In this document: positions 3,327 to 17,868 of the stretch, piece after piece
Layout: the number at the start of each line of letters is the position of its first letter
How positions within the stretch are numbered: position 1 is the first letter of the stretch
Assembly (NCBI RefSeq): GCF_014701235.1
Contig: NZ_AP022873.1
Span: 2,108,001 to 2,172,000 of the forward strand
Length of the DNA stretch: 64,000 nucleotides
Reading direction: 5' to 3'
From: Dissulfurispira thermophila
Lineage (GTDB): Bacteria; Nitrospirota; Thermodesulfovibrionia; Thermodesulfovibrionales; Dissulfurispiraceae
The notes under the pieces: model-generated
Told to the model about the DNA's origin: nothing
Databases searched by the model: none
The model's input: only the letters and a program-made list of their open reading frames with translations
Made by a program: the position numbers and the translations under genes

Positions 3327-4205
3327 ATGAACACAGCAGAAGAAAAAGAGACCACAAAAGTAGAAGTAGCACAGATAGACCCGCTTTTTTTTGTGGTGCG
3401 GGAATTAGACAGCATAAAAATAAGCACCAAAGAAGAATTTGACAAGGTTTACAAAGCAATTGACTCACTGCGGGCAGAAACAAAAGCTGAATTTGACAAA
3501 GTCTATAAGGAGTTTGACAAGGTATATAAAAAGTTTGATAATGTCGAAGAATCAATAAATAGCCTTAAAAGTGAAATCAAAGGTGAAATAAATAGCCTCA
3601 GAACTGAAACTAAAGATGAAATAAACAGCCTCAAAAATGAAATTAAAGATGAAATAAATAGCCTTAGAACTGAAACCAAAAGTGAGATAAACAGCCTCAA
3701 AAATGAAATTAAAGATGAAATAAATAGCCTTAGAACTGAAACCAAAAGTGAGATAAACAGCCTCAAAAATGAAATTAAAGATGAAATAAACAGCTTCAGA
3801 ACTGAAATTAAAGATGAAATAAATAGCCTCAGAACTGAAACCAAAAGTGAGATAAACAGCCTCAGAACTGAAACTAAAGATGAAATAAACAGCCTTAAAA
3901 ATGAAATTAAAAGTGAAATCAAAAGTGAAATAAATAGCCTTAGAACTGAAACCAAAGGTGAGATAAACAGCCTTAAAAATGAAATTAAAGATGAAATAAA
4001 TAGCTTCAGAAGTGAAACCAAAGGTGAGATAAACAACCTTAGAAATGAAATTAAAAGTGAAATCAAAAGTGAGATAAACAGCCTCAGAACTGAAATTAAA
4101 GATGACACAAAAGAGCTTCGCTCATTTATGATAAAGCTCACATTCAGCATGGCTGGACTTATAATAGCAGGAGTTGGTATATTATTCAGCATTATCAAAC
4201 CATAA
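3327..4205 (+). CDS. Long hendecad-repeat coiled-coil protein with C-terminal membrane helix
   Basis: Function unknown. The 292 residues fall into three parts. The head (residues 1-70) contains FDKVYK units. Then come roughly 16 copies of an 11-residue unit of the types EINSLRTETKD and EINSLKNEIKD (residues ~75-255). A C-terminal membrane helix (FSMAGLIIAGVGILFSII) follows. Eleven-residue periodicity is typical of right-handed or straight coiled coils. The DNA is a 33-bp tandem repeat. It shares the rod-plus-membrane-tail design with the proteins at 1838, 6584, 7132 and 8200, although the repeat sequences differ. The opposite strand is open only because the repeat lacks stops there. Confidence 0.7.
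   Translation: MNTAEEKETTKVEVAQIDPLFFVVRELDSIKISTKEEFDKVYKAIDSLRAETKAEFDKVYKEFDKVYKKFDNVEESINSLKSEIKGEINSLRTETKDEINSLKNEIKDEINSLRTETKSEINSLKNEIKDEINSLRTETKSEINSLKNEIKDEINSFRTEIKDEINSLRTETKSEINSLRTETKDEINSLKNEIKSEIKSEINSLRTETKGEINSLKNEIKDEINSFRSETKGEINNLRNEIKSEIKSEINSLRTEIKDDTKELRSFMIKLTFSMAGLIIAGVGILFSIIKP
3560..4110 (+). repeat. 33-bp tandem repeat within a coding sequence
   Basis: About 16 imperfect copies of a 33-bp unit (GAAATAAATAGCCTCAGAAC plus AGAAATTAAAGAT-like sequence) keep the reading frame. Two places carry a partial extra unit (AAAAGTGAAATC), shifting register by four residues. Blocks alternate LRTETK and LKNEIK types, which indicates duplication of 66-bp dimers. Confidence 0.85.
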
Positions 4206-4263
4206 AAAAGGAGGTGATGCCTGGAGGAAAGGTCAGGAAAAGACAAAAGGAGAGAAGTAAAGT

Positions 4264-4328
4264 TGTCATTGCGAGCGAGACAAAGCAATCTCAGCAGTGA
4301 GATCCTTCGCCAAAGCTCAAAATGACAA
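4264..4328. repeat. Palindromic dispersed repeat (TTGTCATTGCGAGC type)
   Basis: TTGTCATTGCGAGCGAGACA (4264-4283) and the 3' arm ending in AAAATGACAA (4319-4328) are inverted around AATCTCAGCAGTGAGAT. This is the widespread TCATTGCGAGC...GCAATGACA intergenic repeat class known from many bacterial genomes; here the right arm has decayed. It lies upstream of the porin gene. Confidence 0.65.
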
Positions 4329-4408
4329 GGCAGTTGAGAGCAAAATCCGCCCTTGGCGGAAAAACTGAACCAATCATTAAAACAGGATTGGGAAGTGGAG
4401 GAAGTTAA

Positions 4409-5806
4409 ATGAAAAAGTTTTTGGCAATCATTGCAAGCTTAGCATTAGTGCTCGGCTTTGCAGCAAGCGCATTTGCCATCCATGCTGAGATCCCATCAGA
4501 GACTCAGGCAATAGTGGCAAAAGGCAGCACCCAGATAACACTGGGCGGTCAATTGAGGGTAAGAGGTGAGATCCAGCAAAACACCTCTGATTTCTTTAGT
4601 GATAAATCAGACAGAAAATCATATTACGACCAGCGTGTAAGGCTCCGTCTGCAAGCTGATGTCACCAAAAACACAACAGGTGTGATTCATCTGGAAGGCG
4701 GTACAAACAAAGATGACAACTTTAAATGGGGCGATAATTCATCATCAGGCGCAAGCGGTATATACGCCACCGGTAATGCAAAGAAAAGCAGCTTATACAT
4801 CCTTGAGGCATGGATTCAGCACAAAGGCACAGGACTTCTTGGAATCCCTGCAGGCATAAAGGTTGGTCATATGCCTTTAAAACTCGGCAACGGTCTCTTC
4901 TTTGACCACAGCAAGTTTGGCGATGACGCAATCGTATTCTTTATGGACCCTATAAAGGAACTGCATATTGGACTGTTGACAGCCAAATTTGCTGACAATG
5001 TAGCCAGTGACACAGCTAACAACGACGCAGATGCATATGTTGGACTTATGGTTTACAAACCAAATAAGGACACCAACATCAGCTTCGATGTGACTTATGT
5101 TGATGACAAAAGGAGTAACGGTCTCGGCGGGATCACTTATGGGAATACACCAAATATTGTAAATATTCCAACACATCTCTGGAACTTTGGCTTAAGGGGT
5201 GATACAAACATCTCTGGTTTTGGGATATATGCTGATGTAGAACTCCAGAATGGTAAAATTGAATACGATAAAGTAGCAGGCCTCGACGAAACAAAACTGA
5301 GAGGTTATGCTTACATGGTAGGCTTGAACTATAAGCTTGACCCTGTGAAAGTTGAACTCGAATATGCATATGGTAGCGGTGATGATGATTCAAACGACAA
5401 CAAAAACAAAAATTTTGTAACATCACTCGGATCTGACAAACACTTTACATATGTATATGAATACCGCACAAAAAATGCACAAGGTACTCAATATGGTGGA
5501 CTCACCAATACCCAGTATGTAAAACTCGGATTATCGTCAAATCTTACAAAGGATCTCACTGGTGAAATCCAAGGCTACTGGTTGAGAGCCAGTAAGAAAT
5601 ACTCAGCAACTTATGACAGTAAGAATATCGGAACAGAAATAGATGCAAAAGTCAGCTACAAGATTGATAAGAACCTTGTATACTGGGTAGAAGGCGGCTA
5701 CCTCTGGGCTGGAAACTTCTGGAAAAACTTTACAGGCGATACATCAACAGCTAAGAAAGTTGACGACGCCTATGCAATCAGGCACGGAATTCAGCTCAGC
5801 TTCTAA
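4409..5806 (+). CDS. Outer-membrane beta-barrel porin
   Basis: A 465-residue outer-membrane channel. Residues 1-23 are a classical signal peptide (MKKFLAIIASLALVLGFAAS, cleavage after AFA). The rest alternates in beta-strand fashion (ITLGGQLRVRGEIQ, RVRLRLQADV), with many Tyr/Phe belt residues and a C-terminal strand ending in Phe (HGIQLSF), the signal for BAM insertion. The substrate cannot be told. GGAGG precedes the ATG by seven bases. A strong terminator follows at 5831-5860. The last 42 bases of this gene recur five more times within 2.8 kb downstream. Confidence 0.85.
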   Translation: MKKFLAIIASLALVLGFAASAFAIHAEIPSETQAIVAKGSTQITLGGQLRVRGEIQQNTSDFFSDKSDRKSYYDQRVRLRLQADVTKNTTGVIHLEGGTNKDDNFKWGDNSSSGASGIYATGNAKKSSLYILEAWIQHKGTGLLGIPAGIKVGHMPLKLGNGLFFDHSKFGDDAIVFFMDPIKELHIGLLTAKFADNVASDTANNDADAYVGLMVYKPNKDTNISFDVTYVDDKRSNGLGGITYGNTPNIVNIPTHLWNFGLRGDTNISGFGIYADVELQNGKIEYDKVAGLDETKLRGYAYMVGLNYKLDPVKVELEYAYGSGDDDSNDNKNKNFVTSLGSDKHFTYVYEYRTKNAQGTQYGGLTNTQYVKLGLSSNLTKDLTGEIQGYWLRASKKYSATYDSKNIGTEIDAKVSYKIDKNLVYWVEGGYLWAGNFWKNFTGDTSTAKKVDDAYAIRHGIQLSF

Positions 5807-5891
5807 TTGCTGAATATCTGAATCTCAAAAGGCGGCGGGCATTTGCCCGCCGCCTTTTTTGTTTGATTTTTAGTTTCTTGTCTACTATATT
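5765..5891 (+). repeat. Cassette junction R0: porin 3' end, terminator, promoter (127 bp, type I)
   Basis: Contains the true porin tail (codons for DAYAIRHGIQLSF and stop, 5765-5806), the GC-rich terminator (5831-5860), then TTGATT (5863-5868), 17 bases and TATATT (5886-5891). This is the parental form of the junction. The type I terminator region starts AATTG...TGAATCTCAAAAGGCGG. Confidence 0.8.
5831..5860 (+). terminator. Rho-independent terminator of the porin gene
   Basis: GGCGGCGGGC-ATTT-GCCCGCCGCC followed by six T, a perfect 10-bp stem. Confidence 0.9.
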
Positions 5892-5896
5892 TAAAT

Positions 5897-6094
5897 ATGG
5901 ATAGTTTAAATAGGGAAGCAATAAAAAAGGAACTTAAGGTAAATTTGGAAAAATTTAAGATAGCTGCCACTGTAACAACATTAATAACAGGAGGTTTGAT
6001 TGGACTTTTATTCAAGCAAGCTGATACAACTATGAAGGCAATACTTTTTATTGTAGGGGCAATAGCTGATTTGATTTTTGCTATTTATCTTTGA
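5897..6094 (+). CDS. Small two-helix membrane protein (cassette A, first gene)
   Basis: 65 residues of unknown function. A basic amphipathic start (MDSLNREAIKKELKVNLEKF) is followed by two membrane segments (about residues 24-40 and 46-65). The ATG falls only 5 bases after the promoter -10 element (5886-5891) and has no SD, so the mRNA would be leaderless or nearly so. A 31-residue membrane peptide follows after 52 bases. The same pairing of a ~65-residue two-helix protein with a 31-residue one-helix protein occurs in the cassette at 7595-7887. Confidence 0.6.
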   Translation: MDSLNREAIKKELKVNLEKFKIAATVTTLITGGLIGLLFKQADTTMKAILFIVGAIADLIFAIYL

Positions 6095-6146
6095 AAATTG
6101 GACAATTTGATTGAAAAATTATTAATCAGGTTAAGGGAGGCTTAAA

Positions 6147-6242
6147 GTGTTTGAGATAATCGGCTCTATAACTGTAGGAGTGTTGCTAATATTATTTGTT
6201 CTTGCATTTACTCATAACTTGATACTGAAAAAACAAAAATAG
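6147..6242 (+). CDS. 31-residue single-helix membrane peptide (cassette A, second gene)
   Basis: GTG start preceded by GGGAGG at a seven-base spacing. The peptide (MFEIIGSITVGVLLILFVLA, then FTHNLILKKQK) is one membrane helix with a basic C-terminus. It has exactly the same length as the peptide at 7792-7887 and similar layout, which supports both as real. Function unknown; toxin-like or regulatory membrane micropeptides have this shape, but nothing here proves it. Confidence 0.5.
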   Translation: MFEIIGSITVGVLLILFVLAFTHNLILKKQK

Positions 6243-6285
6243 TCGAGGAATAGATTGGACGGGTTGACAATCACATAGCAACCAA

Positions 6286-6431
6286 AATGCCTATGCAATC
6301 AGACACGGAATCACACTCAGCTTCTAAATCAGTGCGGAAGCTCTGAAGCGCAGAAGTCAAGGCGGTGAGTCACCATATAAATGGTGCCACCGCCTTTTTT
6401 GTTTGAAAATCATCTTAATTTCTGCTATGCT
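6286..6431 (+). repeat. Cassette junction R1 (146 bp, type II)
   Basis: A porin tail ghost (NAYAIRHGITLSF and stop, 6286-6327) with no gene in front of it is followed by a two-level hairpin terminator (AAGGCGGTG...CACCGCC, inner CACCAT/ATGGTG, T run; 6359-6400). TTGAAA (6403-6408), 17 bases and TATGCT (6426-6431) come next. Confidence 0.8.
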
Positions 6432-6457
6432 ATTTTTAAAAGCCCTTTGGAGGACAT

Positions 6458-6583
6458 ATGCCTACAACGCTTGAAGAAAGAGTCGCCTATCTTGAAGGCA
6501 AGGTCAAAGGATTAAGAAAAGGGGTGTGTAATATTTCTTTAAGCCCTTTGAAAAGTGCAGATATGACGAAGGAGGTTAAGTAA
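6458..6583 (+). CDS. 41-residue hybrid ORF (truncated heptad-protein start)
   Basis: Begins exactly like the heptad-repeat protein at 7132 (MPTTLEERVAYLEGKV) with the same SD (GGAGG) and promoter. After codon 16 it switches to unrelated sequence (KGLRKGVCNISLSPLKSADM), and its TAA abuts the ATG of the next gene (TAAATG). It is probably a recombination scar that supplies transcription and coupled translation to the gene at 6584. An almost identical copy is at 8074. Confidence 0.5.
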   Translation: MPTTLEERVAYLEGKVKGLRKGVCNISLSPLKSADMTKEVK

Positions 6584-6961
6584 ATGCCTGTAATAACCAT
6601 ACCAAAGGCATTGAGAGACAAGCTTGGAGATGAGGCAGCAGAGTCCTTTGCAGTGCTTCTTAAAGAAGTAGAGCATGAAGGCAGAAAAGACGCCCTTGTG
6701 CTGGCAGAGGAGAGATTTGAACGCAGGCTCTCTGAAGAAGTAGCATCACTAAGAGTAAAAATCAGTGAGGTAAAAGCAGAACTCGAAACTAAAATCAGTG
6801 AGGTAAAAGCAGAACTCGAAACTAAAATCAGTGAGGTAAAGGCTGAACTCGAAGCTAAAATCAGTGAGGTAAAGGTTGACATTATTAAGTGGATGTTTAT
6901 CTTCTGGGCTGGGCAGATAGTCGTATTGATAGCTATATTACAGATATTCTTCCGTAAATAA
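6584..6961 (+). CDS. Tail-anchored hendecad coiled-coil protein (cassette B)
   Basis: 125 residues. The N-terminal region (MPVITIPKALRDKLGDEAAE, residues 1-50) resembles the DUF1640/CCDC90-like group of short coiled-coil membrane proteins (a resemblance judged by eye). About four 11-residue units (KISEVKAELET) follow at residues 58-98, then a C-terminal membrane helix (FIFWAGQIVVLIAILQIFF). AAGGAGG lies upstream and start codon and preceding stop touch. Its stop TAA overlaps the porin tail ghost of junction R2. The copy at 8200 differs at only a couple of residues. Confidence 0.75.
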   Translation: MPVITIPKALRDKLGDEAAESFAVLLKEVEHEGRKDALVLAEERFERRLSEEVASLRVKISEVKAELETKISEVKAELETKISEVKAELEAKISEVKVDIIKWMFIFWAGQIVVLIAILQIFFRK

Positions 6962-7105
6962 TGCCTATGCAATCAGGCACGGAATTCAGCTCAGCTTCTA
7001 AATCAGTGCAGAAGCTCTGAAGAGCAGAAGTCAAGGCGGTGAGTCACCATATAAATGGTGCCACCGCCTTTTTTGTTTGAAAATCATCTTAATTTCTGCT
7101 ATGCT
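6960..7105 (+). repeat. Cassette junction R2 (146 bp, mosaic)
   Basis: Tail ghost NAYAIRHGIQLSF and stop (6960-7001) is type I in sequence. The terminator (7033-7074) and promoter (TTGAAA 7077-7082, 17 bases, TATGCT 7100-7105) are type II, so a crossover took place near the stop codon. Confidence 0.8.
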
Positions 7106-7131
7106 ATTTTCAAAAGCCCTTTGGAGGACAT

Positions 7132-7434
7132 ATGCCTACAACGCTTGAAGAAAGAGTCGCCTATCTTGAAGGCAAGGTCGAAGAGCACTCAAAGGTGTGG
7201 TCTGATTTGAAGGATATGATGATAAATCATGACTCAAAGATGATAGCCTTTGAGCAGCGAATTGACAGACGATTTGAGGCTATTGACAAACGATTTGAAG
7301 CTATTGACAGACGATTTGAGGCTATTGACAGAAGATTTGAAGCTATTGACCAGAAGTTCAGCAAATATTTCTTATGGATAATAGGTATTCAGGTATCAGT
7401 TTTACTTGCTGTAATAGCCTCAATGTTGAGGTAA
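7132..7434 (+). CDS. Tail-anchored heptad-repeat coiled-coil protein (cassette C)
   Basis: A 100-residue paralogue of the protein at 1838. It has the same head (MPTTLEERVAYLEGKVEEHS), five RFEAIDR-type heptads (residues ~45-75), and the same C-terminal helix (YFLWIIGIQVSVLLAVIASM). The promoter (7077-7105) and SD (GGAGG) are shared with the hybrid ORFs at 6458 and 8074. Function unknown. It ends 23 bases before the next porin tail ghost. Confidence 0.75.
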   Translation: MPTTLEERVAYLEGKVEEHSKVWSDLKDMMINHDSKMIAFEQRIDRRFEAIDKRFEAIDRRFEAIDRRFEAIDQKFSKYFLWIIGIQVSVLLAVIASMLR

Positions 7435-7457
7435 AGCGAGTAAAAGCAATCACAGAA

Positions 7458-7584
7458 GATGCCTATGCAATCAGGCACGGAATTCAGCTCAGCTTCTAAT
7501 TGTAAAAACAGTTGAATCTCAAAGGCGGGTTGAAAATGTAACTCGCCTTTTTTGATTGATTTTTCATATTTCCTGTGCTATCTT
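7458..7584 (+). repeat. Cassette junction R3 (127 bp, type I)
   Basis: Tail ghost DAYAIRHGIQLSF and stop (7458-7499) is identical at the protein level to the real porin end. A weaker terminator follows (GGCGGGTT...AACTCGCC plus T run, 7521-7553), then TTGATT (7556-7561), 17 bases and TATCTT (7579-7584). It has exactly the same total length as R0. Confidence 0.8.
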
Positions 7585-7594
7585 TAAATCAAAG

Positions 7595-7795
7595 ATGAGA
7601 CACTATAACAAGAAAGAGAAAACAGCAAATTGGCTGTTTAAAATTGCCGAATATGTGGCGATTGCGTTGGGAATTAATGCGTTGCTACCGAACAGTCCTT
7701 TAACCATTAAAAATGTCATTGCAGGAACTGTTATCCTTCTGACTATACTGGTGCTTGCTTTATGGATAACACCTGAAAAAAAGGAGGACCGATGA
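7595..7795 (+). CDS. Small two-helix membrane protein (cassette D, first gene)
   Basis: 66 residues starting MRHYNKKEKTANW, with two membrane segments (about residues 17-32 and 38-57). An upstream in-frame ATG at 7556 lies inside the promoter -35 and cannot be used. The chosen ATG is about four bases after the predicted transcription start, with no SD, so a near-leaderless mRNA is likely, as in cassette A. The stop overlaps the next ATG (ATGA), which implies coupling. Function unknown. Confidence 0.6.
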   Translation: MRHYNKKEKTANWLFKIAEYVAIALGINALLPNSPLTIKNVIAGTVILLTILVLALWITPEKKEDR

Positions 7796-7887
7796 ATTCT
7801 TTTATTCTTGTACTTATAGTGATTGTAGTTTTTGGGATTGGCGCTGGATTGTATTTCTATCTTTCAGAAAAAAAGCATCAGCATTAA
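7792..7887 (+). CDS. 31-residue single-helix membrane peptide (cassette D, second gene)
   Basis: MNSFILVLIVIVVFGIGAGL, then YFYLSEKKHQH: one membrane helix and a basic tail. AAGGAGG lies upstream, and the ATG overlaps the stop of the preceding gene. It has the same length as the peptide at 6147 and resembles the start of the ORF at 8809 (GxYFxxxxKK). Confidence 0.55.
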   Translation: MNSFILVLIVIVVFGIGAGLYFYLSEKKHQH

Positions 7888-7893
7888 GCAGAA

Positions 7894-8047
7894 GATGCCC
7901 ATGCAGTAAGACACGGAATCACACTCAGCTTCTAAATCAGTGCAGAAGCTCTGAAGAGCAGAATCGCAGAAGTCAAGGCGGTGAGTCACCATATAAATGG
8001 TGCCACCGCCTTTTTTGTTTGAAAATCATCTTAATTTCTGCTATGCT
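7894..8047 (+). repeat. Cassette junction R4 (154 bp, type II plus 8 bp)
   Basis: Tail ghost DAHAVRHGITLSF and stop (7894-7935), terminator (7975-8016), TTGAAA (8019-8024), 17 bases, TATGCT (8042-8047). It differs from R1 by an 8-bp duplication (GCAGAATC) before the terminator. Confidence 0.8.
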
Positions 8048-8073
8048 ATTTTCAAAAGCCCTTTGGAGGACAT

Positions 8074-8199
8074 ATGCCTACAACGCTTGAAGAAAGAGTC
8101 GCCTATCTTGAAGGCAAGGTCAAAGGATTAAGAAAAGGGGTGTGTAATATTTCTTTAAGCCCTTTGAAAAGTGCAGATATGACGAAGGAGGTTAAGTAA
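8074..8199 (+). CDS. 41-residue hybrid ORF, second copy
   Basis: Essentially identical to 6458-6583: the head of the heptad protein joined after codon 16 to the leader of the hendecad gene, with the TAA abutting the next ATG. The shared junction means it formed once and was then duplicated with its cassette. Confidence 0.5.
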   Translation: MPTTLEERVAYLEGKVKGLRKGVCNISLSPLKSADMTKEVK

Positions 8200-8577
8200 A
8201 TGCCTGTAATAACCATACCAAAGGCATTGAGAGACAAGCTTGGAGATGAGGCAGCAGAGTCCTTTGCAGTGCTTCTTAAAGAAGTAGAGCATGAAGGCAG
8301 AAAAGACGCCCTTGTGCTGGCAGAGGAGAGATTTGAACGCAGGCTCTCTGAAGAAGTAGCATCACTAAGAGTAAAAATCAGTGAGGTAAAAACTGAACTC
8401 GAAGCTAAAATCAGTGAGGTGAAAGCAGAACTCGAAACAAAAATCAGTGAGGTAAAGGCTGAACTCGAAGCTAAAATCAGTGAGGTAAAGGTTGACATTA
8501 TTAAGTGGATGTTTATCTTCTGGGCTGGGCAGATAGTCGTATTGATAGCTATATTACAGATATTCTTCCGTAAATAA
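8200..8577 (+). CDS. Tail-anchored hendecad coiled-coil protein (cassette E)
   Basis: A 125-residue near-identical duplicate of the gene at 6584. The differences sit in the 11-residue repeat (KTELEA against KAELET), while the head and the C-terminal membrane helix are unchanged. It has the same SD and the same overlap of its stop with the porin tail ghost of R5. This marks cassettes B and E as the product of a recent duplication, and the older differences between junctions show the array predates it. Confidence 0.75.
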   Translation: MPVITIPKALRDKLGDEAAESFAVLLKEVEHEGRKDALVLAEERFERRLSEEVASLRVKISEVKTELEAKISEVKAELETKISEVKAELEAKISEVKVDIIKWMFIFWAGQIVVLIAILQIFFRK

Positions 8578-8729
8578 TGCCCATGCAATCAGGCACGGAA
8601 TCACTCTCAGCTTCTAAATCAGTGCAGAAGCTCTGAAGAGCAGAATCGCAGAAGTCAAGGCGGTGAGTCACCATATAAATGGTGCCACCGCCTTTTTTGT
8701 TTGAAAAATACTTTTAGCTTTGCTATAGT
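8576..8729 (+). repeat. Cassette junction R5 (154 bp, last copy)
   Basis: Tail ghost NAHAIRHGITLSF and stop (8576-8617), type II terminator (8657-8698), TTGAAA (8701-8706), 17 bases and TATAGT (8724-8729). Sequence downstream of the -35 diverges from the other type II copies. Confidence 0.8.
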
Positions 8730-8808
8730 TAAATCAAGATAAAACCAGAAGTGATAAAGCGGATATGTTTTGTTTTTGCATACAAAATTGACCAAAATGG
8801 AGGTAATA

Positions 8809-8964
8809 ATGGATAACCTTACATTGTTGTTTATAATCGGTTCATTGATATTAATCGTGGTTGGTATTTACTTTCACTTTCGCGACAAAAAAACTTTCAC
8901 ATTAGTTACTTCTGTCTCAACAAACACGTTGCCTGAGCAGCAATGCCCTCGCCACGACCAATAA
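8809..8964 (+). CDS. 51-residue membrane peptide overlapping ispF (truncated cassette F)
   Basis: GGAGG precedes the ATG at 8809. Residues 1-28 (MDNLTLLFIIGSLILIVVGI, then YFHFRDKK) look like the 31-residue peptides at 6147 and 7792. After the KK the frame simply continues through antisense ispF sequence (TFTLVTSVSTNT onward), as if the gene had lost its stop when the array was truncated. Promoter R5 would drive it. Translation is plausible but unproven. Confidence 0.45.
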   Translation: MDNLTLLFIIGSLILIVVGIYFHFRDKKTFTLVTSVSTNTLPEQQCPRHDQ

Positions 8965-9376
8965 ATCCCATTCCCTCGTTTGTCTTTGCCTTGATATTTA
9001 GGATTGATTGAGAAATACCTGCTTGTGAAATAGCCTCTTTCATAGATTCTATATAAGGTGCAATCTTTGGTCTTTCTGTTATGACTATAGAGTCAATCCA
9101 GACAATCTCAAAGCCCTTTGATTTTGCAAGTTCAACGATATGTTTTAAAAGCATAATGCTTGAGGCATCTTTCCATTTGTTGTCTGTATCTGGAAAGTGT
9201 TTTCCAATATCGCCTTCACCTATTGCGCCTATAATTGCATCAATAATCGCATGACAGAGGACATCGCCGTCTGAATGCCCGAGCAGACCCTTCTCAAAAG
9301 GAATATCTATTCCTCCAAGAATGAGTTTCCTACCCTCAACAAGTCTATGTGAATCATAGCCAATGCCTATACGCAT
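8906..9376 (-). CDS. ispF: 2-C-methyl-D-erythritol 2,4-cyclodiphosphate synthase
   Basis: The fifth step of the MEP isoprenoid pathway: it cyclises CDP-methylerythritol 2-phosphate, releasing CMP. The 156 residues match the family. The metal-binding and family motifs are GIGYDSHRL at the start, GHSDGDVLCHAIIDA near residues 33-47 and TNEGMGFIGRGEGIA near the C-terminus. It works as a cytoplasmic trimer. It follows ispD in the same direction with a 72-base gap filled by a TTAAGG-type repeat hairpin. Confidence 0.97.
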   Translation of the reverse strand: MRIGIGYDSHRLVEGRKLILGGIDIPFEKGLLGHSDGDVLCHAIIDAIIGAIGEGDIGKHFPDTDNKWKDASSIMLLKHIVELAKSKGFEIVWIDSIVITERPKIAPYIESMKEAISQAGISQSILNIKAKTNEGMGFIGRGEGIAAQATCLLRQK

Positions 9377-9378
9377 AA

Positions 9379-9456
9379 AAATAGGTTGAGGTCAAGGTTA
9401 AGGAGGAGGAAAAAGTTTTCCCCAACCTCAACCTGTCTTTTCTTAACCTTAGCCTC
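9379..9456. repeat. TTAAGG-type repeat pair forming a hairpin
   Basis: ATAGGTTGAGGTCAAGGTTA (9381-9400) is inverted against CCCCAACCTCAACCTGTC and TTAACCTTAGCC (about 9420-9452). It fills the ispD-ispF spacer. Confidence 0.65.
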
Positions 9457-10174
9457 CTTTTAATAGTGCTTCGGCGATATCTATATCTTCTGGCGTGGTT
9501 ATCTTTATATTCCTGTATGAACCCATTATAATCTTAATCTTTCCGCCATATTGCTCAATCAAGGCAGCATCATCAGTAGCGTAATATCTATCAGCAGCAG
9601 CCTTTACATAAGCGTCTCTTATCTTTTCAAAGAAAAATACCTGTGGTGTCTGAATCGCCCACAGGACATTGCGGTTTAATGTATTTTTTACAATGACCTC
9701 CTCTTTCCCATGAGCCATGAGCGATGAGCCATGAACTTCTTTTATCGTATCCTTAACAGGCACACCAACCACAACACCGTCACAATCTTTTAACTCTTTA
9801 AGAGATTTTCTGACAATATCGCTTTCTATGAGAGGCCTTGCTCCATCATGTATGAGCACAACAGATGTTTTATCATCAACAGTCTTAATGCCATTGTAAA
9901 CAGAGTCCTGCCTCTCCTTGCCACCGGGCACTATGCGCTTTACCTTTGTGATATTATATTGCTCTACAAGGTCACCACACATTATCAAATCATTCTCTTT
10001 CAGCACAGGTACTATCTCTGTTATCTCCTCAACAGCCTGGAGCGCCTGAAGTGACCATATAATCAGTGGTTTTCCAAACAAGGAATAGAAAGGCTTGTTT
10101 TTTTCTTCACCAAATCTCTTTCCAAGCCCTGCAGCCGGGACTATGGCAACAACTCTATCTCTTTTAGTCTTCAT
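9449..10174 (-). CDS. ispD: 2-C-methyl-D-erythritol 4-phosphate cytidylyltransferase
   Basis: The third MEP step: it joins CTP and MEP to give CDP-ME. 241 residues. The nucleotide-binding loop AAGLGKRFG is at residues 14-22, with HDGARPL near residue 107 and GVPVKDTIK near 136. Directly after, residues ~145-155 (GSSLMAHGKEE) are encoded by a CATGAGCCATGAGC-type low-complexity repeat (9712-9742), a short insertion relative to typical enzymes. The catalytic parts look intact. Confidence 0.95.
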   Translation of the reverse strand: MKTKRDRVVAIVPAAGLGKRFGEEKNKPFYSLFGKPLIIWSLQALQAVEEITEIVPVLKENDLIMCGDLVEQYNITKVKRIVPGGKERQDSVYNGIKTVDDKTSVVLIHDGARPLIESDIVRKSLKELKDCDGVVVGVPVKDTIKEVHGSSLMAHGKEEVIVKNTLNRNVLWAIQTPQVFFFEKIRDAYVKAAADRYYATDDAALIEQYGGKIKIIMGSYRNIKITTPEDIDIAEALLKGG

Positions 10175-15393: not shown

Positions 15394-17868
15394 TTACCAT
15401 ACCCAAAACAACCTTTTCACATTCATAAGTTCGTCGCTTAATGTCTTTGCCTCCACAAATTGAAAATCCCTCCATGTCTTGACTCTAATCCTTCCATCCG
15501 ATGATTCATGAATGCCTATTGCACCATCAACATCTGTCCTATATACTCGGGCATCAAACAGCATATCAAGTGTTTCAACATGTGGATGACCATAAGTATT
15601 TTTTCTGCCAACACTAATTACTGCTATTTCAGGAGAGACTGCTTTGAAAAACATTTCTGATGCAGATGAACGGCTACCATGATGCGGGACCTTCATGACA
15701 TTACTTTTGAGATATTCTCCAAGATAAAGCAAATCTTCCTCTGCTTCTTCCCCAATGTCGCCTGTAAAAAGAAAAGAATTTCTATATCCCTGAATCCTTA
15801 AGACAATACAATCATTATTCTCTTCATTGCCTGTCGAATGCATTGTGTAAAAACCATCATAAGGATGAAGAACAGTAATTTTGTATCCTTCGCCTTCGAT
15901 AATATCGCCGCGTTGAAGTTTTCTATGAATTGTAGCTTCATTTATATAATCAAAAAAATCATCAGGATAAATAAGCCTGCTGTTATCCCAGACTTCACGG
16001 ACTTTAAAATCCCTCAAAAGACGCCGTATTCCGCCGGCATGGTCAGATTGTCCATGAGATAAAATAATTGCTTCGACATTTTTTATTCCCCTATATTTCA
16101 AAAATTCACCTGTCTGAAATCCCTTCCTGCCAGTATCTATAACAATTGTCTTTTTATCAGGAAGTTCAACCACTGCAGAATCTCCCTGCCCCACATCAAG
16201 ATAAGTGATGCTTATTCCACTGGGTTCAAGAAGTTTGATGCCAGTGTAAAAAACAATCGGAACAATTGCAATACCAATCGGAATGGCTATAGGCAATATT
16301 TCTGCCATTCCTGTCCCAAAAAGTCTTCGACTTTTTGGGGACCCTATTTGCCTATTTTGCATTTTGACAATTACATAAACCAAAACTCCAATATAAAACA
16401 TAATAAGCAGTATGAAAGGGAATGCCGGAATCTTTATATCAACAAAGTTCCATTGTGCTATATGTTTTATTACATCAAGGACAAAATTTGTAATCACACC
16501 AATAAACCTCGATAGCGGAAAAACGCCTGATATAAGAAAAACAAATGATGACAAAATAGATAAAGGAAGAATAATAAATCCGATAAACGGTGTGATCATA
16601 AGATTTGTGATAGGTGATATTAAAGAAACATAATGAAAATAATAGGCAACAAGTGGTGCAGTTCCAATACTTGCAGCGAGAGATATTTTGAGAGCAGAAG
16701 AGCAGTATCGCACCATGCGCCGAGCACCGAGAGATAGGCGTCGGGCATCAAGAGCCTGACGCTCTGCTGCTGTTCTGTCCTTTTGCTCTGCAACTAAGCC
16801 TATACATAATACAGCAATGAAAGAAAGCTGAAATGATAAGTCAAGTATTGAATCAGGCTGGATCAGGATTATCACAATCGCTGCAAAAAGCAATGTATTA
16901 AGCCAAAATCCCTTTCTATAAATCAGGAGGCTGAAAAGAAAAAGTGTAATCATAATGAATGCCCTTATAGATGGTATGCTCATGTCAGATATGCCAAGAT
17001 ATGCAATCATAAATGGAATGCTCAAAACTGCGGCTATCTGTGAAGGAGTAATATAAAGCGTTAATCTGACAAGCACATTATGTGGCAATATCTTTACAAA
17101 AAATCTGAAAAAATTAAATAAAACAAGCCACAACAAACCAAAATGTGTCCCTGATATGCTCAGTATATGCGCAAGCCCTGTAGCATTGAATGCATCTCTT
17201 GTATTTTTTGAAATCAGACTTCGCTCACCTGTTATTATAGACATTAAAAACGATGCAGATTCAGGAGAAAGATTCCCTTTCATAAAACCATCGAGCCGCA
17301 TCCTCAACCTTTCAAAAAATCCTGTCTGATTACTGCCTATCTCTTTAACTTCAATAGCATATCCTGTAAGCAAGCTATAAGCAACGCCGGGATTTAAAGA
17401 ATATGCATCTTTTGGAATCTGTGCTTTTATGTCATATACCTTGTCCCTTTCTGCCCCAAAAAATCTCTGACTTTTTGGCTCCCCCTTTTGCAATGGCTCA
17501 TTACTTATCAATCGAATTTCTTTTAAGTTTTCTGGAGATTTGACTTTTATTCGATAAGAAAAACCTGAATAATCAGCATTGAATATAGTAGTCTCTTGCA
17601 CATCTGAAGCCACTATGCCCTGTAATTGAATAGTCTCACCAGCAATATTAGAAGGAGATAACTGTGGGACATATCTCATCTTTGCATAATAGAATCCTGA
17701 AACTGCAATAATAGCAATGATAAAAATATGATAGCCTGTCTGTTTTCTGAATTTTAAAAAAGACATTAGGAGTATCAATATCAGGGATATAAAAATACTC
17801 AAAAAAGGGAAAAATCTATAAACATAAAAAAGTGTGGTGCCATAAATAAATGAGATAAAATAGCTCAT
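15394..17868 (-). CDS. comEC: ComEC/Rec2-type DNA uptake channel
   Basis: An inner-membrane channel that carries single-stranded DNA into the cell during natural transformation. 824 residues: N-terminal OB-like region, the competence domain with many helices (residues ~200-510), then a metallo-beta-lactamase domain (SHGQSDHAGG, HHGSRSS) that may process DNA. Three stretches look inserted by dispersed repeats. Two are GTCCCAAAAA palindromes (residues ~130-138 and ~509-518); the third is an Arg/Ala-rich loop (residues ~363-393). All stay in frame in loops, so the gene is probably functional. Type IV pilus motors are present in the window (42-45 kb), as transformation would need. Confidence 0.92.
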   Translation of the reverse strand: MSYFISFIYGTTLFYVYRFFPFLSIFISLILILLMSFLKFRKQTGYHIFIIAIIAVSGFYYAKMRYVPQLSPSNIAGETIQLQGIVASDVQETTIFNADYSGFSYRIKVKSPENLKEIRLISNEPLQKGEPKSQRFFGAERDKVYDIKAQIPKDAYSLNPGVAYSLLTGYAIEVKEIGSNQTGFFERLRMRLDGFMKGNLSPESASFLMSIITGERSLISKNTRDAFNATGLAHILSISGTHFGLLWLVLFNFFRFFVKILPHNVLVRLTLYITPSQIAAVLSIPFMIAYLGISDMSIPSIRAFIMITLFLFSLLIYRKGFWLNTLLFAAIVIILIQPDSILDLSFQLSFIAVLCIGLVAEQKDRTAAERQALDARRLSLGARRMVRYCSSALKISLAASIGTAPLVAYYFHYVSLISPITNLMITPFIGFIILPLSILSSFVFLISGVFPLSRFIGVITNFVLDVIKHIAQWNFVDIKIPAFPFILLIMFYIGVLVYVIVKMQNRQIGSPKSRRLFGTGMAEILPIAIPIGIAIVPIVFYTGIKLLEPSGISITYLDVGQGDSAVVELPDKKTIVIDTGRKGFQTGEFLKYRGIKNVEAIILSHGQSDHAGGIRRLLRDFKVREVWDNSRLIYPDDFFDYINEATIHRKLQRGDIIEGEGYKITVLHPYDGFYTMHSTGNEENNDCIVLRIQGYRNSFLFTGDIGEEAEEDLLYLGEYLKSNVMKVPHHGSRSSASEMFFKAVSPEIAVISVGRKNTYGHPHVETLDMLFDARVYRTDVDGAIGIHESSDGRIRVKTWRDFQFVEAKTLSDELMNVKRLFWVW
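16313..16342. repeat. In-frame palindromic element, copy 1 (in comEC)
   Basis: GTCCCAAAAAGTC-TTC-GACTTTTTGGGGAC: a 13-bp stem with a three-base loop. On the coding strand it reads SPKSRRLFGTG. Confidence 0.8.
16688..16785. repeat. Low-complexity repeat inside comEC
   Basis: GC-richer than its surroundings, with GCGCCGAGCACCGAGAG and GCCTGACGCTCTGCTGCT units. It encodes the Arg/Ala-rich segment between membrane helices (KDRTAAERQALDARRL and onward). It looks like inserted dispersed repeat. Confidence 0.5.
17453..17479. repeat. In-frame palindromic element, copy 2 (in comEC)
   Basis: GCCCCAAAAAATC-TCT-GACTTTTTGGC, coding for EPKSQRFFGAE on the minus strand, in the same orientation and frame as copy 1. 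Confidence 0.75.

Follow-up and report, generated by a model that had tools for sequence, protein, structure and literature searches.

How can an array of small genes grow behind a resident gene without a tyrosine recombinase at hand? This question is raised by a locus of Dissulfurispira thermophila (G000, a single contig of 2,370,875 bp), which we analyzed within a stretch of 64,000 nucleotides, positions 2,108,001-2,172,000 of NZ_AP022873.1 (the window, to which coordinates refer unless another locus is named). Here, a full porin gene is followed by six junctions (R1 to R6, R1 being the porin's own end), each combining the end of the porin gene with an untranslated region (UTR), a terminator and a promoter, and small genes for membrane or coiled-coil proteins lie between them (Table 1). 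Across related genomes, designated below by G numbers and their loci by L numbers, small modules that differ between genomes sit between the porin gene and the next larger gene. Five genomes have modules with a copy of the porin's final ~42 nt behind them, and most of these copies include the UTR and the terminator. Judging from sequence comparison, we consider it fairly probable that the locus resembles a minimal mobile element (MME) that carries its own homology arms, at which RecA-type recombination duplicates, adds and swaps cassettes.

Copies of the porin 3' end form mosaic junctions

A 39-nt tail core lies at positions 5768, 6289, 6963, 7461, 7897 and 8579, in each case 3 nt inside the repeat start given by the initial annotation, which had been made from the sequence alone. 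With up to three mismatches, the core was found nowhere else in the G000 contig, and a control pattern gave 0 matches. Counted from the repeat start through the -10 hexamer, the repeats come in three exact lengths of 127 (R1, R4), 146 (R2, R3) and 154 bp (R5, R6), and TTGAWW-N17-TATNNT fits all six junctions, just as had been annotated. The likeness of the copies extends through tail, UTR and terminator and then, at lower identity, through the promoter to about the start codon (R1 with cassette A versus R4 with cassette B: 77% over the first 133 columns), which justifies counting the promoter as part of the repeat. Terminator-like sites were more numerous than in shuffled sequence (8 observed versus 2.7); on the plus strand the terminator scanner reported R1 and R4 only, and the hairpins of the other junctions, which have an interrupted stem, were read by eye.

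As a background control, we took 590 open reading frames (ORFs) of at least 150 aa from the window and from L027, L029-L063, L095-L134 and L196-L209 and searched the same strand, within 6 kb, for a recurrence of their final 45 nt together with the next 60 nt. At E<=1e-10, 3'-end copies were seen for the porins of the window, of L035 (G004) and of L196 (G295); the other cases at this threshold were two antisense ORFs on the window repeats and one L196 gene ending on a tail copy. Five further genes gave weak matches (E 2e-6 to 4e-5), and inspection of three of them revealed simple repeats twice and a cassette relic once. The single tail of G002 fell below the threshold of this control (E 2e-4 in the porin-end blast described below), and the porin of G139, cut by a contig end with 143 aa available, was too short for it. 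Chance repeats were rejected on this control. Assembly error as the sole cause was rejected because other genomes share the architecture, and a translated tail fusion because the stop codons of the modules precede the tail. One ORF that does end in the tail (7374-7499) lies over the coiled-coil gene CC2 and was taken as chance.

The junctions carry two types of terminator, type I (R1, R4), of the resident porin's kind, and type II (R2, R3, R5, R6), of another kind. When R2 was compared with 84 porin ends, the best match was that of G001 (91 bits, as against 54 bits for its own porin). G001 is a congener whose porin is just 61% identical to the window porin, and the type II junctions are 73-79% identical to its porin end. 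Among the 84 porin ends, the type II hairpin centre ACCATATAAATGGTG occurs in G001 alone, even allowing three mismatches. R3 joins an exact resident tail (39/39) to a type II UTR, whereas R2 and R5 have the type II UTR on other tails, which places breakpoints inside the tail. Moreover, whole units were duplicated, since R2-CC1 and R5-CC1' are 97.4% identical over 684 columns, and R3-CC2 matches R2-CC1 at 96% over the first 224 nt. The annotated rule that type I always precedes a two-helix gene plus a 31-residue partner rests on n=2, and in G001 the homologous pair follows a type II-like terminator; a strict type I/type II rule of this sort is not supported.

Tails follow resident and foreign porins

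We next compared 12 non-porin tails with 11 porins, leaving out a G004 junction that has no coding tail and, as in all tail work, G022, whose porin is cut by a contig end. The porin of the same genome was closest in 8 cases and tied in 1, while another genome's porin was closer in 3 of the 12 (G000 R2, G000 R5 and the G002 tail). For nine copies the whole junction was matched to the 84 porin ends: the own porin was best for five (G000 R4, G139 R2 and R3, G004 R3, G295), and G001 was best for the remaining four (G000 R2, R3, R5 and R6). These counts indicate that the tails are partly homogenised with the resident porin and partly foreign.

The porin genes themselves tell a related story. The G001 porin is 84% identical to that of G015, a member of another genus, and 61-63% identical to those of its congeners G000 and G002; the proteins flanking it in G001 are 77-90% identical to those of G000. 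Likewise, the G046 porin is 42% identical to that of its congener G015 and 58% to that of G034, from another family. Porin alleles at odds with the genus at a conserved locus suggest that alleles of a surface protein have been exchanged. The type II junctions may be fossils of a former resident porin allele, or may have arrived with cassettes from a G001-like donor.

Arrays, single cassettes and empty sites in relatives

The comparison sample comprised one genome per species, most of them split into many contigs; locus L064 formed no part of the comparisons. In a pattern scan covering 176 genomes of the order, 61 of which gave some match, clustered extra tails appeared in G000, G002, G004 and G139, and a scan of 395 genomes of the phylum, a set overlapping the first (64 with any match), added G295. 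In G011, two matches lay on two full porins. Matches not shown to be porins were the second one of G006 (G006:C57) and the single ones of G066 and G173, the reading frame in G173 not being a porin. We also blasted porin 3' ends, from the last 60 nt of the gene onward, against their own downstream sequence at 73 porin loci in 69 genomes, omitting G017, G038 and G047, which had too little downstream sequence. Tail-spanning copies were found at 4 of the 73 loci (G000, G002, G004, G139), and the reversed control gave 1 match overall. The other matches lay behind the stop codon and resemble dispersed repeats.

The content of the arrays differs between genomes (the flanking-gene names ispF, ispD, deoA and hemL were assigned by eye). 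G002 has one coiled-coil cassette and then a terminator-less tail running into ispF. G001 has one cassette homologous to cassette A of the window, followed by a decayed tail recognised by eye (L029 2830-2861), which abuts ispF where the terminal tail of G002 does. The G004 array comprises UPF0175, DUF3368, an ORF without a confident family, HicA with a HicB-like partner, DUF2283, VapB and PIN, and its own porin end recurs three more times, once without coding tail. These copies all stop abruptly at +83/84, right after the T-run (+79), with four unrelated sequences beyond, unlike those of G000 and G139, in which likeness continues into the promoter. At the 3' end of ispF, the right flank of the G004 array (L035 7595-7640) is similar to the hicA end (5987-6033; 79% over 47 columns), which would fit a HicBA cassette that once adjoined ispF there. 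G139, from another family, harbors an unknown gene pair, HicBA, and a two-helix pair with a coiled-coil gene, a tail following each; its two-helix pair matches DUF6722 just below the cut-off, and its last tail abuts deoA. In G295, from another order of the same class, HicBA is followed by a tail and an unrelated gene. The HicB proteins of G004, G139 and G016 gave no Pfam match at 0.01 and were named by their neighbour or by likeness to those of G132 and G295, for which the HicB_lk match is itself below the cut-off.

No terminator accompanies the tails of G002 and G295 or the last tail of G139. By eye, the same coiled-coil/tail joint, directly behind the stop codon, is present in G000, G002 and G139, and G004, G139 and G295 have in common a HicA/tail joint no more than about 20 nt from the stop. 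Empty sites exist among congeners, namely in G036, G138 and G140 as against the filled G139, and in G046 as against the cassette-bearing G015. Tails without a porin gene and with other cassette content, as expected for a shuffled array, were thus found in G002, G004, G139 and G295, and in none of these four does a full porin stand at each tail. The original description of the cassettes as small envelope genes proved too narrow, given HicA or HicBA, UPF0175/DUF3368 and VapB/PIN elsewhere. As a separate observation, ORFs behind the porin in G030 and G041 (L033, L107) resemble REP-associated tyrosine transposases by eye, in G030 beside short repeats.

The same modules away from porin ends

Related modules are widespread. 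From the start codon on, the two-helix pair of G139 differs from that of G144 at 1 position in 299 nt, whereas the 85 columns before it are 72% identical and the porins 56-58% (over the 143 aa of G139). The same pair is found in G034, from another family, at 90% identity. Overall, the two-helix gene of G139 had matches in 17 of the 176 genomes, and 24 of the 27 matches lay away from a porin; the 27 did not include window cassettes A and B, whose kinship with this gene was seen by eye. In G131 (L138, L153, L157-L161), there were seven two-helix-gene matches, some beside toxin-antitoxin-like genes (by eye). The coiled-coil gene had matches in at least 37 of the 176 genomes. Among 30 of its loci that we inspected, three, all in porin arrays, have a tail, and at the other 27 no tail was seen up to 160 nt from the first in-frame stop (at least 8 mismatches of 24).

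A search for direct repeats around similar modules gave a hit at 17 of 49 loci (E<=1e-3; reversed control 0). Four of the 17 are array loci, and we did not count the 17 as support. In G003, of the window's genus, a coiled-coil gene of the same family stands between hemL-like and cytochrome-like genes (L203, G003:C124, about 3460-4060, and L163). A palindromic element with TTGAGCGATT ends lies on each side of it, in two direct copies of 82 bp (98.8%), and a related palindrome is seen by eye in L027 near 6155-6205. Flanking by direct repeats is thus not confined to porin ends. Toxin-antitoxin-like genes without a tail stand directly behind the porin in G008 (Arc/FitA-like and PIN-like, below cut-off), G040 (HicB-like) and G095 (YoeB-like).

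Known systems compared

The closest named kind is the MME of Neisseria, which consists of two conserved genes with differing whole-gene cassettes between them, incorporated by homologous recombination (PMC3082526); the concept goes back to Saunders and Snyder 2002 and Snyder et al. 2007, as cited in PMC3082526 and PMC3388099. As far as these accounts describe MMEs, the porin locus shares with them different whole-gene cassettes between conserved genes and the lack of an own mobility gene. Incorporation, which in MMEs is ascribed to homologous recombination, may be of that kind here too, where we saw mosaic junctions, porin alleles at odds with the genus and a near-identical module in G139 and G144. 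The flanks are conserved and the content differs: between porin and ispF, G000, G001, G002, G004 and G015 are filled differently and G046 is empty, and between porin and deoA, G139 is filled and G036, G138 and G140 are empty. The difference is that here a piece of one flank, the porin 3' end with its terminator, is copied behind each cassette, which gives multi-cassette arrays with internal homology; the MME passages name no such repeats. In orphan cdiA-CT/cdiI and rhs arrays, small modules that each carry a fragment of a surface-protein gene line up behind that gene; the modules are nearly identical between strains, and recombination at the conserved fragment was proposed (PMC3150448). Our locus resembles them, as described in that passage, in having a surface-protein gene and an array of small modules with fragments of it. 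However, their fragment, from the VENN region, is fused to the toxin, whereas here the fragment is a 3' end, behind the module and outside its protein. Accordingly, a fragment in frame with a toxin and followed by an immunity gene was not found in our arrays, in which tails follow the module's stop.

Integron arrays hold small genes, including toxin-antitoxin pairs, behind a fixed site, their unit being an ORF with a repeated 3' site. All of this applies to the porin arrays as well, but G000 encodes no integron integrase above the cut-off (TIGR02249, best 119 bits, cut-off 265), the array has no attC-like pairs (RYYYAAC..GTTRRRY on both strands of 5700-8964, spacer 25-120: 0, mean in shuffles 0.7), and its units have their own promoter and terminator. 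Membership of the integrons therefore fails for G000, although integrons may be a source of modules. The annotated absence of an integrase holds for tyrosine recombinases, as PF00589 had no match in the window, the three G000 matches lying elsewhere. No mobility family exceeded its cut-off among the scanned array ORFs, in a search that included no scan aimed at transposases. Acinetobacter pdif (dif) modules are also small and without a recombinase of their own, and are described as being shuffled by host machinery, there via XerC/XerD sites (PMC12907356); the small recombinase-free module is the common element. A copied 3' end with terminator behind each cassette is absent from the MME and cdiA-CT passages (PMC3082526, PMC3150448), and among the open-licence papers listed for the arrangement and its neighbours or for DUF6722, no title or abstract start described the arrangement. 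The mechanism we infer is already known; the copied 3' end and terminator behind each cassette appears to be the new part.

How the array may have formed

The MME-like reading can be laid out as a series of steps. A module would land behind the porin terminator, with its own promoter and insulated from the porin transcript. A porin 3' end would then be joined behind it, probably in a rare microhomology-type event upon uptake of another porin locus. The module would now have on each side a direct copy of one sequence of 40-150 bp, which is present at the corresponding place in relatives. Through RecA-type recombination at these copies, the unit could be duplicated or be deleted as a circle, an excised circle could be inserted into another porin end, and cassettes could be exchanged between species via the porin tail and the right flank. 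Gene conversion with the resident porin would make the tails resemble it, and the terminator would keep the transcripts of the units separate. Toxin-antitoxin and small membrane or coiled-coil genes would be what such a site collects and not one pathway. Of the annotated claim of homologous recombination at porin ends, the mosaics, the unit duplication and the porin alleles at odds with the genus speak for it, and the recombination itself is deduced from them. Capture appears to exceed chance. As weak further support, a ComEC-type protein is encoded at 15397-17868, about 6 kb beyond ispF.

Several points weigh against this reading. The case for recombination comes from sequence comparison across single genomes per species, most of them in many contigs. 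Homology leaves the first tail behind a module unaccounted for. At many porin loci there is a small module without a tail (e.g. G008, G015, G016, G034, G132), and the tail is thus not needed for capture. Furthermore, tail copies are uncommon, being present at 4 of 73 loci, a mismatched stretch of 40-150 bp offers RecA little length, direct repeats also flank similar modules at some other loci, and ComEC indicates a possible part of DNA uptake and not competence.

Among other explanations, the tails could be relics of whole porins, left when a tandem duplication with intervening genes was followed by deletions that spared the last strand and the terminator. Tails that differ in protein-sensible ways, the match of some to porins of other species and the presence of two porin loci in some genomes of the order would fit, yet in the blast alignments the porin coding part of every copy is limited to about 50 nt or less, and no longer relic turned up downstream in the 73 loci, where the query was the last 60 nt and none was sought directly. 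We regard this as unlikely. Tandem duplication combined with selection for a terminator, each incoming gene keeping a nearby terminator, of which the porin's is the nearest, has in our view a slim chance of being the whole answer: R2-CC1/R5-CC1' is a plain duplication and three G004 copies end just past the terminator, but neither the 40 nt of coding tail and the foreign type II ends nor the terminator-less tails of G002, G295 and the last G139 copy are accounted for.

A trans-acting site-specific recombinase (an integron integrase, XerCD or other) that uses the tail or terminator as attachment site would account for the recurring joints, and IntI-type integrases exceed the curated cut-off in 5 of 8 genomes (G001, G004, G015, G034, G295); it appears quite improbable, however, with IntI below the cut-off in the tail-bearing G000, G002 and G139, attC-like pairs at 0 in the array against 0.7 in shuffles, and tails that vary between genomes and mostly follow the local porin. 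We give similarly little credence to the porin 3' end and terminator being a true capture site, with recurrent, possibly enzyme-assisted joining at preferred borders, in effect an integron-like platform without integron parts; porin-side borders fall mostly at -34 to -49, in several families and two orders. Reverse-transcribed porin mRNA 3' ends inserted behind modules would match the G004 copies, with their common 3' border at +83/84 and differing 5' ends (-34, -21, +15). Such an RNA route is nevertheless extremely improbable, given that likeness continues through the promoter in G000 and G139 and that the copies all lie at the porin locus in one orientation.

Features of the window locus

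Relatives of the porin were found in 36 of 40 genomes. The coiled coil and membrane helix of CC1 were recognised by eye, the 31-aa and 41-aa ORFs had no family match above cut-off, and the R6 promoter sequence has diverged from the remaining type II junctions. Upstream of the porin, at 3327-4205, lies a gene for a 292-aa coiled-coil protein with a C-terminal membrane helix, made of 33-nt repeats whose length equals that in CC1. A plasmid collection searched with window 6270-8770 and Rfam searched with window 4200-9600 gave no match. Viral contigs contained 3 distant coiled-coil relatives, and a genome-contig collection searched with the porin contained 2 relatives, one being G002's contig.

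Table 1. Porin gene, junctions and cassettes of the window.
Feature	Position	Strand	Remarks
Full porin gene	4409..5806	+	Alginate_exp-type barrel, 465 aa, PF13372 E=4e-13; source of the tail
R1: porin 3' end, type I terminator, promoter; 127 bp	5765..5891	+	
Cassette A two-helix membrane ORF, 65 aa	5897..6094	+	homologue directly behind porin in G001
Cassette A membrane ORF, 31 aa, GTG start	6147..6242	+	84% DNA identity to G001 over 174 nt including the ORF
R2: tail, type II UTR/terminator, promoter; 146 bp	6286..6431	+	closest porin end G001, 79%
41-aa ORF heading CC1 cassette	6458..6583	+	start common with CC2; perhaps truncated CC2-type gene
CC1: coiled coil and C-terminal membrane helix, 125 aa	6584..6961	+	NF047472 LA_3696_Nterm 63.5 bits, cut-off 32
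R3: own-porin tail (39/39), type II UTR/terminator, mosaic; 146 bp	6960..7105	+	
CC2: coiled coil and membrane helix, 100 aa	7132..7434	+	no family match above cut-off
R4: own-porin tail (39/39), type I UTR/terminator, promoter; 127 bp	7458..7584	+	of 84 porin ends, own porin matches best (91 bits)
Cassette B two-helix membrane ORF, 66 aa	7595..7795	+	no family match
Cassette B membrane ORF, 31 aa	7792..7887	+	overlaps preceding stop
R5: tail, type II UTR/terminator, promoter; 154 bp	7894..8047	+	closest porin end G001, 75%
41-aa ORF, as at 6458	8074..8199	+	
CC1': copy of CC1, 125 aa	8200..8577	+	
R6: tail, type II UTR/terminator; 154 bp	8576..8729	+	closest porin end G001, 73%
Last membrane ORF, 51 aa	8809..8964	+	enters 3' end of ispF; probably truncated
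ispF homologue (by eye), right flank of array	8906..9376	-	74-91% identity across seven relatives compared

Implications

Gene-shuffling platforms have mostly been recognised by their recombinase, and the porin locus suggests that the repeated 3' end of a core gene can collect genes by homology alone. Toxin-antitoxin genes and orphan small membrane genes are suggested to travel through this porin-end platform. Its signature, copies of a core gene's last codons and terminator without the gene, can be searched for, and the growth of recombinase-free cassettes of the MME kind into arrays becomes a testable question.

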